Part shown: piece by piece, positions 57,509 to 62,646 of the stretch
How positions within the stretch are numbered: position 1 is the stretch's first letter
Layout: each line of letters begins with the position of its first letter
Assembly: GCA_002839645.1 (NCBI GenBank)
Contig: PGYL01000007.1
Location: forward strand, 26,525-89,170
DNA length: 62,646 bases
Direction of reading: 5' to 3'
Origin: Methanomicrobiales archaeon HGW-Methanomicrobiales-2
GTDB lineage: Archaea > Halobacteriota > Methanomicrobia > Methanomicrobiales > Methanoculleaceae
Made by a program: the position numbers and the translations under genes
Notes under the pieces: generated by a model
Seen by the model: the letters and a program-made list of their open reading frames with translations, nothing else
Database searches by the model: none
Told to the model about the DNA's origin: nothing

Positions 57509-57733
57509 GGTTTTCCCTCTGCTTAACAAGAGTTACAACCACATTGTTATATACTTTTTCAATTCTAAAAATCGAAATATAAATCTCCGATTATCGAAAA
57601 AACTGAAATTAGCCCCTTTTTCCATAAAAGGTGCCACCAGAAATACATCCGTCATCACAACAAAGTAGATATAGATCAAGTGTGCGAACACCATCCGACA
57701 CCTAATTACCCATGCAAGCGCATAGTAGAAACA

Positions 57734-58552
57734 ATGAAACAGATCGCCCTCTACGGGAAGGGGGGAATCGGGAAATCCACCACTGCAGCGAACCTATCGG
57801 CAGCACTGGCAGGGGAAGGGCTCGATATCCTGCAGATCGGCTGCGATCCGAAGCACGACAGCACACGGATGCTGATGCACGGGACCTGGATCCCGACGGT
57901 CCTCGACCTCATCCGGGAGCGCGGAGACGAGAGGATCACCGTCGATGACGTCGTCTACAAGGGATACCGGGGGGTGCGCTGCGTGGAGGCCGGCGGGCCT
58001 GAGCCGGGGATCGGGTGCGCCGGACGGGGCATCATCGCAACGTTCCAGCTCCTCGAACGCCTGGAGGCCCTCAAAGGAGATGTGATCGTCTACGACGTCC
58101 TCGGGGACGTCGTCTGCGGCGGGTTTGCGATGCCGATGCGGGAGGGATACGCGCAGGAGGTCTACCTGGTCACCTCCGGCGAACTGATGTCCCTCTACGC
58201 GGCAAATAACATTGCTAAGGCCATCGCCCGTCTCTCGAACCGGGTGCGGAGCAAATGCTCGCTCGGAGGCGTGATCTGCAACGCAAAGAACATCGAAGGC
58301 GAACGGGAACTGGTGGAGGAGTTTGCCCGCCGGATCAACTCCCGGATCATCGCCTACGTCCCCCGGTCCCGGGACGTGCAGGTTGCGGAGCTGCACAGGC
58401 AGACGGTCGTCGAGTACGCCCCCGAATCGGACCAGGCGGCGGTCTACCAGGAACTTGCACGCACGATCTATGGGAACGAAACGACGAGTATCCCCACCCC
58501 CCTCGAGATGGATGAACTCGAATCCTTCGCCCTCGAATTCGTCCAGGTTTGA
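57734..58552 (+). CDS. cfbC: Ni-sirohydrochlorin a,c-diamide reductive cyclase, reductase component
   Basis: 272 residues from ATG 57734. NifH-like ATPase: P-loop [38 protein letters not shown], and the two 4Fe-4S cysteines, GIGCAGRGI near 93 and [10 protein letters not shown] near 128. CfbC delivers electrons to CfbD for the step of coenzyme F430 synthesis that forms the ring system of 15,17-seco-F430; the absence of nif genes and the partner below rule out nitrogenase. Start follows an AT-rich leader. Confidence 0.93.
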
Positions 58553-59579
58553 GGGGTGCACCCTGACCGGAGCGCTCTCGGTGCTCTCGGAGGTACGGGA
58601 CGCGGTCTGCATCGTCCACGGTCCGGCAGGGTGCACACACCATAACTTCTCCCTCCTCCACGCCACACTGCTCGCAAACGACCGGCTCGAAGCCCCCCGC
58701 CTTCTCTCCACCCGCTTAACGGAGAACGATATCATCTTCGGGGGCGAAGAGGCGCTGGAGAAGACCATCGCACGGGCGCTCTCGCTCTCCCCTGCTTCCG
58801 TCTTCGTCCTCTCGACCTGCATTGTCGAGACGATCGGGGACGACACCGCGGCGGTCTGTGCGAAGGCCCAAGGCGTCCCGGTGATCGCCGTGCCGACCGC
58901 GGGGTTCCTTGGGGGGGTGTTTGAGACCGGTATCAGAAACGCCCTCGCTTCGGCAGCGTCGCTCGCCCGGCCTCCTGCCGAGACGACGCTCTCGGCAAAC
59001 CTGGTCGGCGAGAAGAACCTGGAGTTCGGCGTCGACGAGAACGCAGCCGAGATCGCACGCCTTCTTTCCCGGCTCGGCATCGGCATCAACCTCCGGTTCG
59101 TGCGGGGGATCGGCACCCGGGATATCGAACGCCTCGGGTCCGCCGCCGTCAACATCCTCAGAGAACCGGCGCTCCGGCCGGTCGGCGAAGACCTCCAAAA
59201 GAGGTTTGCCACGCCTTATGTGGACTCGTTCCCGGCCGGCCTTGCGGGGACGTGCCGGTTCCTCGAAGAGGTCGGCCGCATCTGCGGCATCGACGCTTCG
59301 GCCGCTGTCGAAGAGGAGCGCGCCTGCCAGGCAGCGATCTTTGAGAGGTTCGCGGACATCGCAGGGAGCCGGGTGCACTTCGTGTCTCCCCACCCCATGC
59401 TCGAGGCCGATCCAGATGCAGAGACCATCTGCACCGAATGCGCCGAAGCCCTCGGCCTCACCGTCGCCCCGGACGGGACCGCCATCCCCCTCCCGTACCC
59501 GGCGCCCGTCGGGACCGCAGGGCTCCGGCGGATGCTGCACCGGTGGAGGGTGCTGATCCGGGGGGAGCGGCGGGGGTAG
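58512..59579 (+). CDS. cfbD: Ni-sirohydrochlorin a,c-diamide reductive cyclase, catalytic component
   Basis: 355 residues from ATG 58512, overlapping cfbC by 41 bases in another frame. NifD-like: [16 protein letters not shown] and [14 protein letters not shown] carry the cluster Cys residues; [19 protein letters not shown] holds a third. CfbD works with CfbC in F430 synthesis, needed for methyl-coenzyme M reductase. The unusually long overlap implies tight translational coupling; an intermediate in-frame start nearer 58550 cannot be ruled out. Confidence 0.92.
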
Positions 59580-59659: not shown

Positions 59660-60000
59660 TCAGGCGGCCTCGTCATCAAGCATCTGCCTGACTGCGCCCC
59701 GTAGTTCCGGGATCTTGTTCCTGACAACGCCCCACACGATCTCGTTATGGATCCCGAAGTATGCGTGAATGAGGATGTCGCGCATTCCTGCAACCTTTCT
59801 CCAGGAAATATCGGCGTGTTCGCATTTCAGCGGTTCAGGGATGAGTTTGCCTCACCGATGACCATGAGGTTCCGGATCACTCCGTCCTGCACCAGGTCGT
59901 CTGCCAGGAACCCCTCGTAATCCATTCCCCTGGTATACCGCTCAATTCTCCCGATAGCCTCAAGGATATCATTGAGATAGAGACTATATTCCCGGGACAT
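59660..60000 (-). pseudogene. HepT-type (HEPN) toxin, frameshifted
   Basis: From ATG 60000, MSREYSLYLNDILEAIGRIE ... VIGEA reads as HepT, then runs into a stop; one base earlier the frame resumes as LIPEPLKCEHADISWRKV, AGMRDILIHAYFGIHNEIV (the RX4HXY RNase motif intact) and a normal end at 59660. Total length is 341 bases, so one base is missing near 59845-59850. HepT cleaves RNA and is silenced by AMPylation by MntA. It may be a real loss of toxicity or a sequencing error. It overlaps mntA by 17 bases. Confidence 0.85.
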
Positions 60001-60286
60001 ACCGAACGCTCCGGAGGATGTGCGGTGCGAGAGCCGGTTTTATGGCATCGCGGTCAACGAGGTCGACTCTTCTCCCGAAGAGGTCTTCGAGGAAGAACTT
60101 GAGGTCCATGTACGTGTCAAAGGAGCGCCCTCCTTCCTTGAACTCGATGAGGATATCGATATCGCTCTCTTCGCGCTCTTCGCCCCGGGCAAACGACCCG
60201 AAGATCCCGATCCGCCGAACGCCCAGGCTCCTGATCCGTTCGCGGTGTGCTGCCAGCGCACCGAGGATGCCGTCAGCCGTAAGCAT
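59984..60286 (-). CDS. MntA-type nucleotidyltransferase antitoxin
   Basis: 100 residues. Minimal nucleotidyltransferase: GIFGSFARGEEREESDIDIL is the GSX10DXD active site, followed by SFDTYMDLKFFLEDLFGRRV and a third acidic residue (VDLVD). In the MntA-HepT (type VII) module it AMPylates the HEPN toxin near the RX4HXY motif. Its stop falls inside the hepT start region. Since HepT here is broken, the antitoxin is orphaned unless the frameshift is an error. Confidence 0.9.
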   Translation of the reverse strand: MLTADGILGALAAHRERIRSLGVRRIGIFGSFARGEEREESDIDILIEFKEGGRSFDTYMDLKFFLEDLFGRRVDLVDRDAIKPALAPHILRSVRYVPGI

Positions 60287-60452: not shown

Positions 60453-60706
60453 TCAGACCGCCCTCTCCACAACCGCGATCTCCTCCTCCGTCAGCCCGTA
60501 GAGTTCGTAGACCAGCCGGTCGATCTGCCGGTCGGCCTTCTCGCACGCTGCCTCCCGCCGCGGCCGCTCTTCCGACGGGACATCCTCGGCAAGCGCTTTG
60601 TTCATCATAAGGAGGCTCTCGACCAGGGCGACGATCCGGTCGCGGGAGGCGGGGAGGTAGGAGGGGAGGAGCAGGCCGGAGAGAGCGAGTGCCGGGAGAT
60701 GATGGT
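60453..60706 (-). pseudogene. C-terminal relic of a type IIG restriction-modification enzyme
   Basis: A minus-strand frame, closed upstream by TGA near 60710, reads LPASRDRIVALVESLLMMNK, then DRQIDRLVYELYGLTEEEIA and VVERAV to the stop at 60453-60455. This is the characteristic tail of Eco57I-like single-chain type IIG enzymes and related N6-adenine methylases. The remaining 900 or so residues are absent, so it is a relic. The rest of 60287-60832 shows no gene; AT-rich TATA-like DNA at 60766-60780 leads into the next operon. Confidence 0.65.
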
Positions 60707-60832
60707 GTCATGCCCTGCGCCCATGCGGAGTGGCAATGGAGGAAGGGTACGACAGCAACACATAACAACCATATAATTCATATCACTACACTGTAATCCA
60801 CATACAGAACAATCTGACCCTGACAGAGAGAG

Positions 60833-61411
60833 ATGGTGGCTATGGAGTTCACTATTGATGAGATTGCCGATAACCTCCCGGGTCTCGGTGTGGCAATCCT
60901 GCACCTACTGCATGCCGGAGGCAGATCCCCTGTCCGGGGGGATGTTATATTCCAGAAAGAACTCTTTCTCATCGGGGATTACATTGAACGGATCGGAGAC
61001 GACGCGGACTTCACTCCTCACATATTTGGGCCGTATAGCGAACCCGCTGAGGTTGCGCTGGACGAGCTCTCCTCCCTGGGTCTGGTCAGGAGAAACGCGG
61101 GAGGTTATACCCTCACCCCTGATGGGGTCAGGGTCTGGGAGAGGGTGCGCTCTGCATTTCCCAACGATGAGTCCGGGGCAATCGAAGATTTTAAGGCTTT
61201 TATCAACGACCTCAGCGTGGATGAGGTCCTCCTCTTCGTTTACGTCACCTATCCTGAATACACCTGTGAGTCTGCAAGATTTCGCGATATCCTGCGAAGG
61301 AGGAGGCCGCTCTCTGCCTCACTGTACCGGAAAGGGAAAGTAAGTCTTGAAAAAGCTGCGTTTCTGGCCGGGATGAACCTGGAGTCGTACCTTGATTACC
61401 TCAAGAGATAG
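60833..61411 (+). CDS. Winged-helix-like protein with a UPF0175-like C-terminus (probable antitoxin)
   Basis: 192 residues from ATG 60833 (ATG 60842 possible; GAGAGAG upstream). Residues about 5-105 resemble the winged-helix part of SocA/YwgA-type proteins: VIFQKELFLIGDYIERIGDD, FGPYSEPAEVALDELSSLGL, YTLTPDGVRVWERV. The C-terminus, ASLYRKGKVSLEKAAFLAGM then NLESYLDYLKR, matches UPF0175, a family of PIN-toxin antitoxins. The combined layout is unusual. It is 3 bases ahead of the PIN gene. The AT content is higher than in the core genes. Confidence 0.7.
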   Translation: MVAMEFTIDEIADNLPGLGVAILHLLHAGGRSPVRGDVIFQKELFLIGDYIERIGDDADFTPHIFGPYSEPAEVALDELSSLGLVRRNAGGYTLTPDGVRVWERVRSAFPNDESGAIEDFKAFINDLSVDEVLLFVYVTYPEYTCESARFRDILRRRRPLSASLYRKGKVSLEKAAFLAGMNLESYLDYLKR

Positions 61412-61414
61412 TGC

Positions 61415-61909
61415 ATGAAGATCTTTGATACATCATCCATCGTCTGTGTCTTTCGGGAGATAGAGTACCCAAAAATCCTGGATATCTGTGATGATCTTGG
61501 GTACCGGCTTAGCATCACCCCCCAGGTGTATGAGGAGATCACGGAAAACCCTGAGACTCTTCGATGCCTTGAGGCGTATGGGGGTGTCGAGATCATAGAT
61601 GACGGCGACACCGAATGTTCTGAGAGACTTGCCCGACGTTACCCCTGGCTGCACAAGGGTGAGATCAGTGTCATCTGTGCCGGCGTCGCGGAAAAGCGGG
61701 ATAAAAAACGATACTACTGCATCATCGATGAACGAGCCCGGAACCTGCGGGATAGACTGCAGATCAGGGTAACAGGCACCATCGGCCTCATACTCTGGGA
61801 AAGGGGGCGGCTTGCCCTGACGGGCGAGGAGTGCCAGGATCTCTACAATAGGTTTCTACAATCATCTTTCCACATCAAAAAGGAAGTTCTGCAGGAGTTG
61901 TTACGGTGA
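61415..61909 (+). CDS. PIN-domain nuclease (VapC/DUF3368-like)
   Basis: 164 residues. PIN-like acidic residues: IFDTSSIVCVFREIEYPKIL (first Asp), LHKGEISVICAGVAEKRDKK (Glu), IIDERARNLRDRLQIRVTGT (Asp/Glu and Arg). The last motif and its Gly-Thr-x-Gly-x-Ile-Leu ending are those of the DUF3368 PIN group, whose usual antitoxin is UPF0175, matching the gene in front. Probable RNase. Its stop codon overlaps the next start (GTGA), so the three genes are translationally coupled. Confidence 0.83.
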   Translation: MKIFDTSSIVCVFREIEYPKILDICDDLGYRLSITPQVYEEITENPETLRCLEAYGGVEIIDDGDTECSERLARRYPWLHKGEISVICAGVAEKRDKKRYYCIIDERARNLRDRLQIRVTGTIGLILWERGRLALTGEECQDLYNRFLQSSFHIKKEVLQELLR

Positions 61910-62646
61910 CAAAGGAAGTTCGAATCATCGATTACCTATGTGCGGATGATACCGACCTGAGGTCGCTCTCCGCCGATATCGGAGCGGGAAAGATTGCGAC
62001 ACCGATAAAGACGATAAACCCTCGCGACTTCTACACCGATACTGATTTCCCGCAAAACCTGACGAACCTTCACGAGACATACCTTAAGTTCAACGATGAG
62101 AGCCTGCACCGTATGGATGAGGATAAGGCATACTCCATGCAGAAGAACAAGGAGATCAGCAGGTGCAGAAAGAAAGCGCATGACTGCCCGGGTCTCTGCT
62201 TTGTGGAGTTCAAAACCGGCGGGCCGGAAGGCCGTTATCCTACTGCGCATGAGATAGATATCCTGGCCAACGCTGCCTACTCATACTCGGCTATCACGCC
62301 CATCCCCTCGGTTCCGAGGATGGGGCGCTCCATCAACAGGGAGAACATCGAAGGGTTTTTGCAATATCTCTCATCCTGTATCGAGAGCATCGAGGTCCGG
62401 AACAAAAAGTGCATCCTCGGGTACATGCCTTCAGCCACCGCTCTTTACACCCAGACAATCGTTGATTTCTACCTGGATCATGGGATCAATGCATACTACA
62501 TCGATTTCGATGGAACGATGGTTCAGAGCCATCTCGACTCCCTGAACGCGCTCAAGCGGCGCCTCAAGGTAAGAGGGTATGAAGAGAATAACCTCCTCTG
62601 CTATATCAACGTCAGTTTCGGAAAGGCCATCAACGACCAGAATGTC
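61906..62646 (+). CDS. Unrecognised protein of the three-gene operon (runs off the right edge)
   Basis: 247 codons open from GTG 61906 to the end of the window, with no stop. The start overlaps the PIN stop (GTGA). Seen: GPEGRYPTAHEIDILANAAY, ITPIPSVPRMGRSI, KKCILGYMPSATALYTQTIV and YYIDFDGTMVQSHLDSLNAL, i.e. alternating strands and helices with a Cys-rich stretch, ISRCRKKAHDCPGLCFV. This suggests a TIM-barrel-like or Rossmann-like enzyme, but I do not recognise a family and see no membrane segment. The lower GC than the flanking core genes points to transfer. Confidence 0.6.
   Translation, partial: MTKEVRIIDYLCADDTDLRSLSADIGAGKIATPIKTINPRDFYTDTDFPQNLTNLHETYLKFNDESLHRMDEDKAYSMQKNKEISRCRKKAHDCPGLCFVEFKTGGPEGRYPTAHEIDILANAAYSYSAITPIPSVPRMGRSINRENIEGFLQYLSSCIESIEVRNKKCILGYMPSATALYTQTIVDFYLDHGINAYYIDFDGTMVQSHLDSLNALKRRLKVRGYEENNLLCYINVSFGKAINDQNV

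Follow-up and report, generated by a model that had tools for sequence, protein, structure and literature searches.

A three-gene unit of a winged-helix protein, a PIN nuclease and a remote TGT relative in Halobacteriota, a candidate defence module linked to DNA restriction systems

Gene content of the locus

The window analysed here, a stretch of 62,646 nucleotides from contig PGYL01000007.1 of Methanomicrobiales archaeon HGW-Methanomicrobiales-2, ends with three genes in the same direction, named A, B and C (Table 1). According to the ORF calls, A and B are separated by a 3-bp gap and B and C share a 4-bp GTGA overlap, in agreement with the three coupled reading frames described in an earlier sequence-only reading of this DNA. 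The window end truncates gene C, and ORF and contig sequence continue beyond it: a run of 25 N (L002:5172-5196) starts where the window ends, after which gene C resumes in frame as LSARDLLAYGHG... and reaches a stop at L002:5622. Both flanks of this run are contiguous (NDQDV/LSARD) in a 94%-identical copy of the locus (L014), so the run is taken as scaffold filler hiding little or no sequence, and the rightward extension proposed in the earlier reading finishes gene C at about 388 aa. The named relatives, by sequence, were Methanoculleus and Methanomicrobiales, which puts the archaeon in Methanoculleus or very close to it.

Table 1. Coordinates of the A, B and C genes and of features next to them in the window.
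Feature	Positions	Strand	Description
Gene A	60833..61411	+	192 aa; putative regulator/antitoxin; winged helix (YwgA/DarG/PDC-M19A-like) and UPF0175-like tail, residues 158-192
Gene B	61415..61909	+	164 aa; PIN nuclease (DUF3368/PDC-S70 type), putative effector
Gene C	61906..62646	+	first 247 codons in window; predicted remote TGT/DpdA-superfamily protein; full length ~388 aa
MNT nucleotidyltransferase of HepT/MNT pair	59984..60286	-	intact, 100-aa ORF; neighbour
hepT	about 59660..60000	-	frameshifted, translated in two frames; neighbour, not trio member
Relic 3' end of type IIG restriction-methylase gene	60453..60535	-	83 bp
17-bp element CAGCAACACATAACAAC	60753..60769	+	directly upstream of TATA-like ATATAA (60771-60776)

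A broken HepT and a relic restriction enzyme had been noticed beside the trio from the letters alone, and both were recovered: the frameshift lies in hepT, with the MNT gene intact, and the relic corresponds to the 3' end of a type IIG methylase, with 89% identity to an intact type IIG gene located ~4 kb further right in the same contig. To the right of the trio, in the opposite direction, are genes for an HNH protein, a 1198-aa type IIG restriction-methylase and a 1065-aa PLD/SNF2 helicase. The methylase and the PLD-helicase adjoining the trio are in line with the defence-like island that had been proposed; these RM genes are convergent with the trio and are not in the same operon. Further left (57680-59579) are NifH-like and NifD-like genes which, by eye, we take to be probably CfbC/CfbD of coenzyme F430 synthesis; genes of the CfbC/CfbD type are ordinary in methanogens.

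The 17-bp element CAGCAACACATAACAAC upstream of gene A was found exactly in four of the five nearest Methanoculleus relatives and near-exactly in the fifth, with different surrounding sequence. It has a single exact copy in its own 2.8-Mb genome, and none is expected in the window. Together with ATATAA it probably forms the promoter/operator of the A-B-C operon, and it could be the operator bound by A. A second exact copy of the element, at L018:3327-3343, precedes a PIN-like gene of 152 aa whose neighbour is a type IIG methylase.

Protein families of A, B and C

The A protein of the window matched PADLOC PDC-M19A (2.9e-9) and, under the Pfam cut-off, UPF0175 (3.6e-5). Within the A family PDC-M19A was matched in 31 of 31 members, DarG in 23 and UPF0175 in 20 (best 6.4e-11). 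Pfam SocA_Panacea gave a weak match in two of the 31 (best E 0.032), the window's A not among them, and for this reason A was rejected as a SocA/Panacea (DUF4065) antitoxin. Of the SocA/YwgA-like winged helix and UPF0175-like tail first proposed for A, the YwgA-type helix and the tail are therefore retained, the latter below cut-off, and the SocA component is dropped. The library models nearest to the predicted N-terminal winged helix are those of the YwgA/DarG/PDC-M19A type. A structural model of A, of low confidence (pLDDT 68), has a helical N-terminus, a wing and, at the C-terminus, HTH helices; no Foldseek match to it was significant. Beside the trio in L014 there is a second pair, composed of a 313-aa PDC-M19A-like protein and a 241-aa protein resembling a PIN nuclease (L014:2866-4541).

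The window's B protein matched PADLOC PDC-S70 (2.5e-10), and its DUF3368-like C-terminus had a Pfam value of 0.009, under the cut-off. Of the PIN acidic residues, all 25 B sequences compared have D5 and D105, and at least 90% of them have E41 and E83. The earlier assignment of B as a DUF3368-type PIN thus holds for the PIN with its conserved acidic residues, with the DUF3368 label resting below cut-off. In L174 the B position is occupied by a 153-aa protein, by eye a different PIN, which no family model matched. PDC-S70 is a candidate defence gene that occurs mostly in archaea (PMC12988326).

Gene C belongs to a family of 41 or more proteins and had no match above chance in Pfam, PADLOC, PHROG and NCBIfam, so that a housekeeping or other known family from these collections was rejected. 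The earlier description of the third protein as unrecognised accordingly stands for annotated families and has to be amended for a remote TGT-superfamily signal. In a profile search of PDB sequences archaeosine TGT was the top match for C (E 0.17-0.25), in two collinear segments that comprise an N-terminal "TP" hairpin and a C-terminal HN...E helix. Against archaeal TGT profiles, the C profile obtained E values of 6e-4 and 3e-3, with shuffled or reversed controls at 0.18 or higher, and the two halves of C each found the corresponding TGT end independently. A bridge was provided by L216, a divergent C relative encoded beside an A gene, which was found by the C profile (E 2e-4 over 322 columns) and by the TGT profile (E 2.7e-5; 0.46 in reverse), and which carries the TGT zinc motif CxCxVC. 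Among 58 genomes of the class to which L216 belongs, one had such a zinc-bearing C relative. Searching PDB with divergent C relatives as single proteins gave nothing. On these profile comparisons it is very likely that gene C encodes a remote member of the TGT/DpdA superfamily. In the L216 region (L216:2999-6899) the A-C pair is followed by a gene resembling a UvrD-type helicase.

As judged from its alignment, C is not a normal TGT: the zinc motif CxCxxC was found in none of the 41 main members, and the position aligned with the TGT nucleophile Asp is variable (D in 24, N in 13, H in 3 and A in 1 of the 41, with an uncertain alignment at this point). The window lineage has N there. Conserved positions are G259 and N342 (41/41), D261 (40/41), N235 (37/41) and H267 (33/41), a pattern suggestive of a functional site and not of decay; D200 is also among the strongly conserved polar residues. 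Of the profile and Foldseek searches suggested earlier for C, the first led to the TGT superfamily and the second, run on an AlphaFold model of six sequences (pLDDT 47, pTM 0.43), gave no significant matches by which a TIM-barrel fold could be recognised. The Cys-rich stretch noticed in C is not conserved in relatives and was rejected as a metal site. A viral origin of the gene was likewise set aside, with no relative among viral contigs or phage records; a single C gene was on a plasmid, in Haloarcula.

Several C proteins end in a strict C-terminal Q-x-x-h-x-x-aromatic motif, for example QKSLDRFF, QVSLKEWY and QTGLSDF, which we take to be an archaeal PCNA-interacting box. It was found in 10 of 46 C proteins vs 4 of 476 other proteins from the same loci (P ~1e-8, uncorrected for kinship). 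The window lineage's C has no PCNA-box-like tail. A haloarchaeal clade of C without A or B (L072, L080, L155-L162, L178 and L179) often has such tails. Its loci always adjoin a small protein of 137-166 aa, usually convergent, and five are near orc1/cdc6; the small protein ends in a conserved CP-C..PL-TLEHE motif and had no Pfam or PADLOC match in the one member searched.

Conservation and restriction context of the trio

Matches to C were found in 11 of 150 relatives, 25 of 393 phylum genomes, 14 of 341 haloarchaea and 25 of 232 class genomes, and A-B-C was present in at least 30 loci across Halobacteriota. Iterated A, B and C profiles, applied to the fetched neighbourhoods, recovered A-B-C as a co-directional operon 26 times; in five further loci C is divergent from A-B, and another four contain A and C only. 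A search with A added four further full trios (L209, L212, L213 and L214) and the degenerate loci L206-L208 and L211. A and C without a recognised B were found in L215, L216, L218 and L153. The survey across genomes suggested in the sequence-only reading thus found the trio conserved as a unit elsewhere, and no housekeeping family emerged for C.

The pairwise distances of A, B and C co-vary (Mantel r 0.93-0.95 in 25 loci), a value reached by none of 2000 permutations. Close pairs have dN/dS values of 0.05-0.17, indicating purifying selection; these values, the open-frame length and the conservation across the phylum excluded chance ORFs. In the nearest comparison C is the best conserved of the three genes (dN/dS 0.08). 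In one genome (G011, L015:7343-8509) an in-frame TAG interrupts C, with A and B intact, and in L207 and L208 A and B persist with C broken or lost.

Several trios are located within restriction operons. The order HsdR-A-B-C-HsdS, with HsdM nearby, was found in L165 and L166, and HsdM-HsdS-A-B-C-HsdR in L170; L060, L061, L180, L163 and L168 also lie inside type I operons. In L218 (L218:3548-11095) the order is HsdR-HsdM-A-C-HsdS, with no PIN gene, an arrangement that suggests a direct link of A-C to restriction. Hma operons contain the unit as HmaA-A-B-C-HmaB-HmaC (L176) or as HmaA-HmaB-C-A-other PIN-HmaC (L174), with further cases in L173, L175, L069 and L209. The trio is beside a type IIG methylase in the window, L018, L062 and L182. 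Between hsd or hma genes the reading frames of the trio overlap. Genes embedded in Hma operons include proven antiviral ones (PMC12988326), and the DUF1156/DUF499/SNF2 set is also named Type-1 BREX-related (PMC12839542).

Overall, a type I, Hma or type IIG system was present in 20 of 43 loci with A and C vs none of the 20 control regions taken from those genomes (P ~1e-4), in a comparison with RM profiles built from the trio loci themselves, some near-duplicate genomes and several short contigs. These counts support the defence setting that had been proposed from the window. In more than half of the trio loci, including most of those nearest to the window's, no member of the RM/Hma families tested was within reach.

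Candidate function and its alternatives

No description of the three-gene A-B-C unit was found, and the parts resemble several known systems. PADLOC PDC-M19 and PDC-S70 are the closest for A (PDC-M19A in all 31 members) and B, but neither candidate, each of them predicted, includes C. SocAB consists of the SocA/Panacea antitoxin and the clamp-binding toxin SocB; A is likewise a small helical/winged adaptor, with a partner, C, that in other lineages may bind the sliding clamp; in the searches made, C showed no relation to SocB, and the window's C lacks a clamp motif. In archaea, UPF0175 (COG2886) paired with PIN is well established as a predicted TA family (PMC2701414), and the UPF0175-like tail of A also adjoins a PIN gene; here, however, UPF0175 is a mere tail on a winged-helix protein and a third gene is co-conserved. 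C has the N-terminal TP hairpin and a C-terminal helical segment in common with TGT/DpdA proteins, and L216 keeps CxCxVC, but the 41 main members differ in the absent zinc ligands and the variable nucleophile position. No Dpd or BRC partner genes were seen, the trio had no Dpd match, and its immediate window neighbours had none beyond a generic helicase similarity to DpdE. TGT homologues make DNA marks in Dpd and are proposed to do so in BRC systems (PMC12839542); the same paper reports that PIN RNases occur, though rarely, as backup effectors and that a TGT forms part of another composite system. No description of the trio was found in its main text.

The closest precedent in logic is PrrC, an RNase encoded in a type I operon that is held latent and is proposed to act once restriction has been defeated (PMC3506569). 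As in PrrC/EcoprrI, the gene for the trio's RNase effector is located among hsd genes, in an RM operon in L165, L166, L170, L218 and others; the window's trio only adjoins a convergent type IIG gene. The trio differs in having a PIN instead of the HEPN-type nuclease of PrrC, in its separate A and C proteins, and in occurring outside type I operons as well, in Hma or type IIG loci or by itself. No ABC NTPase or HEPN anticodon-nuclease domain was found in A, B or C.

The trio could be an auxiliary antiviral module of abortive type, which archaea would have embedded in their DNA restriction systems with a logic like that of PrrC, a reading that we regard as evenly balanced. It is supported as the best explanation because of the embedding in RM and Hma operons, the co-conservation of the three genes, the intact PIN residues, the relation of A to antitoxins and of C to TGT, and the PrrC precedent. 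In this module A would bind the operon promoter and keep B, the PIN RNase, inactive within a complex. The TGT-like C would bind or modify nucleobases, tethered in many lineages to the sliding clamp PCNA, and would report the state of DNA or tRNA to the A-B complex. The trigger could be the defeat of the linked restriction system, or the sensing of foreign or unmodified nucleic acid by C. B would then be released and cut RNA, possibly tRNA, the usual target of such PIN toxins, and this cleavage would stop growth and virus production. A more specific version, possible but doubtful, is a previously undescribed archaeal defence system built as a portable cassette for type I, type IIG and Hma systems alike. 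Its TGT-superfamily member, tethered to the clamp, would read or rewrite a nucleobase and, by way of the winged-helix protein as a switch, license the PIN RNase.

The main rival, which we consider somewhat unlikely, takes C as an active DpdA-like DNA base-exchange enzyme brought to forks by PCNA, where C would write a self mark on new DNA for the linked restriction system, with A as the regulator of C and the PIN as a secondary safeguard. It draws on the TGT/DpdA signal with its zinc-motif intermediate L216, the conserved polar residues D200, N235, D261 and H267, the PCNA-box-like C-termini (10/46 vs 4/476), the A-C pair without PIN inside HsdR-HsdM-A-C-HsdS, the orc1/cdc6 neighbours of some haloarchaeal C-only loci, and the DNA marks made by TGT homologues in Dpd and proposed in BRC (PMC12839542). 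However, at the position aligned with the nucleophile Asp, 24 of 41 proteins have D and 13 have N, the window lineage among the latter; the zinc motif is absent in 41/41, no DpdB/DpdC partner was seen, and the window's C lacks the PCNA-like tail.

It is rather unlikely that A and B form an ordinary UPF0175/PIN type II TA pair, with C as a non-defence accessory and the RM neighbours reflecting the clustering of mobile genes. That COG2886-PIN pairs are an established predicted family in archaea (PMC2701414) favours such a pair, as does the persistence of A and B where C is interrupted, broken or lost (G011, L207 and L208). Yet the retention of C and its co-divergence with A and B make a passenger role less likely; C is the best conserved gene in the nearest comparison (dN/dS 0.08), C and A persist without B, and the overlapping frames between hsd and hma genes are tighter than loose clustering. 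An A-B-C unit acting on tRNA only, in which C modifies or shields a tRNA that the PIN cuts when the modification is missing, independently of DNA restriction, seems improbable: PIN toxins commonly cut tRNA or rRNA and the ancestry of C is in TGT, but the PCNA-like tails and the DNA-restriction contexts point to DNA.

The three-component toxin or antiphage system proposed in the sequence-only reading is thus borne out in its conserved unit and defence contexts, while its emphasis on a toxin may be misplaced: the PIN is dispensable in the A-C loci L218, L215, L216 and L153, where it may not be the point.

Under the abortive-module reading, the novelty is probably a new protein family as the third part of a restriction-linked module. 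Archaeal immunity is poorly charted, and its most frequent candidates are untested single genes; here, PDC-M19A-like and PDC-S70-like candidates are joined with the new family C in one unit, which is embedded in three kinds of DNA-restriction system. A TGT-related protein serving defence outside tRNA and Dpd biology is suggested, in a unit that is small and carried by cultivable archaea.
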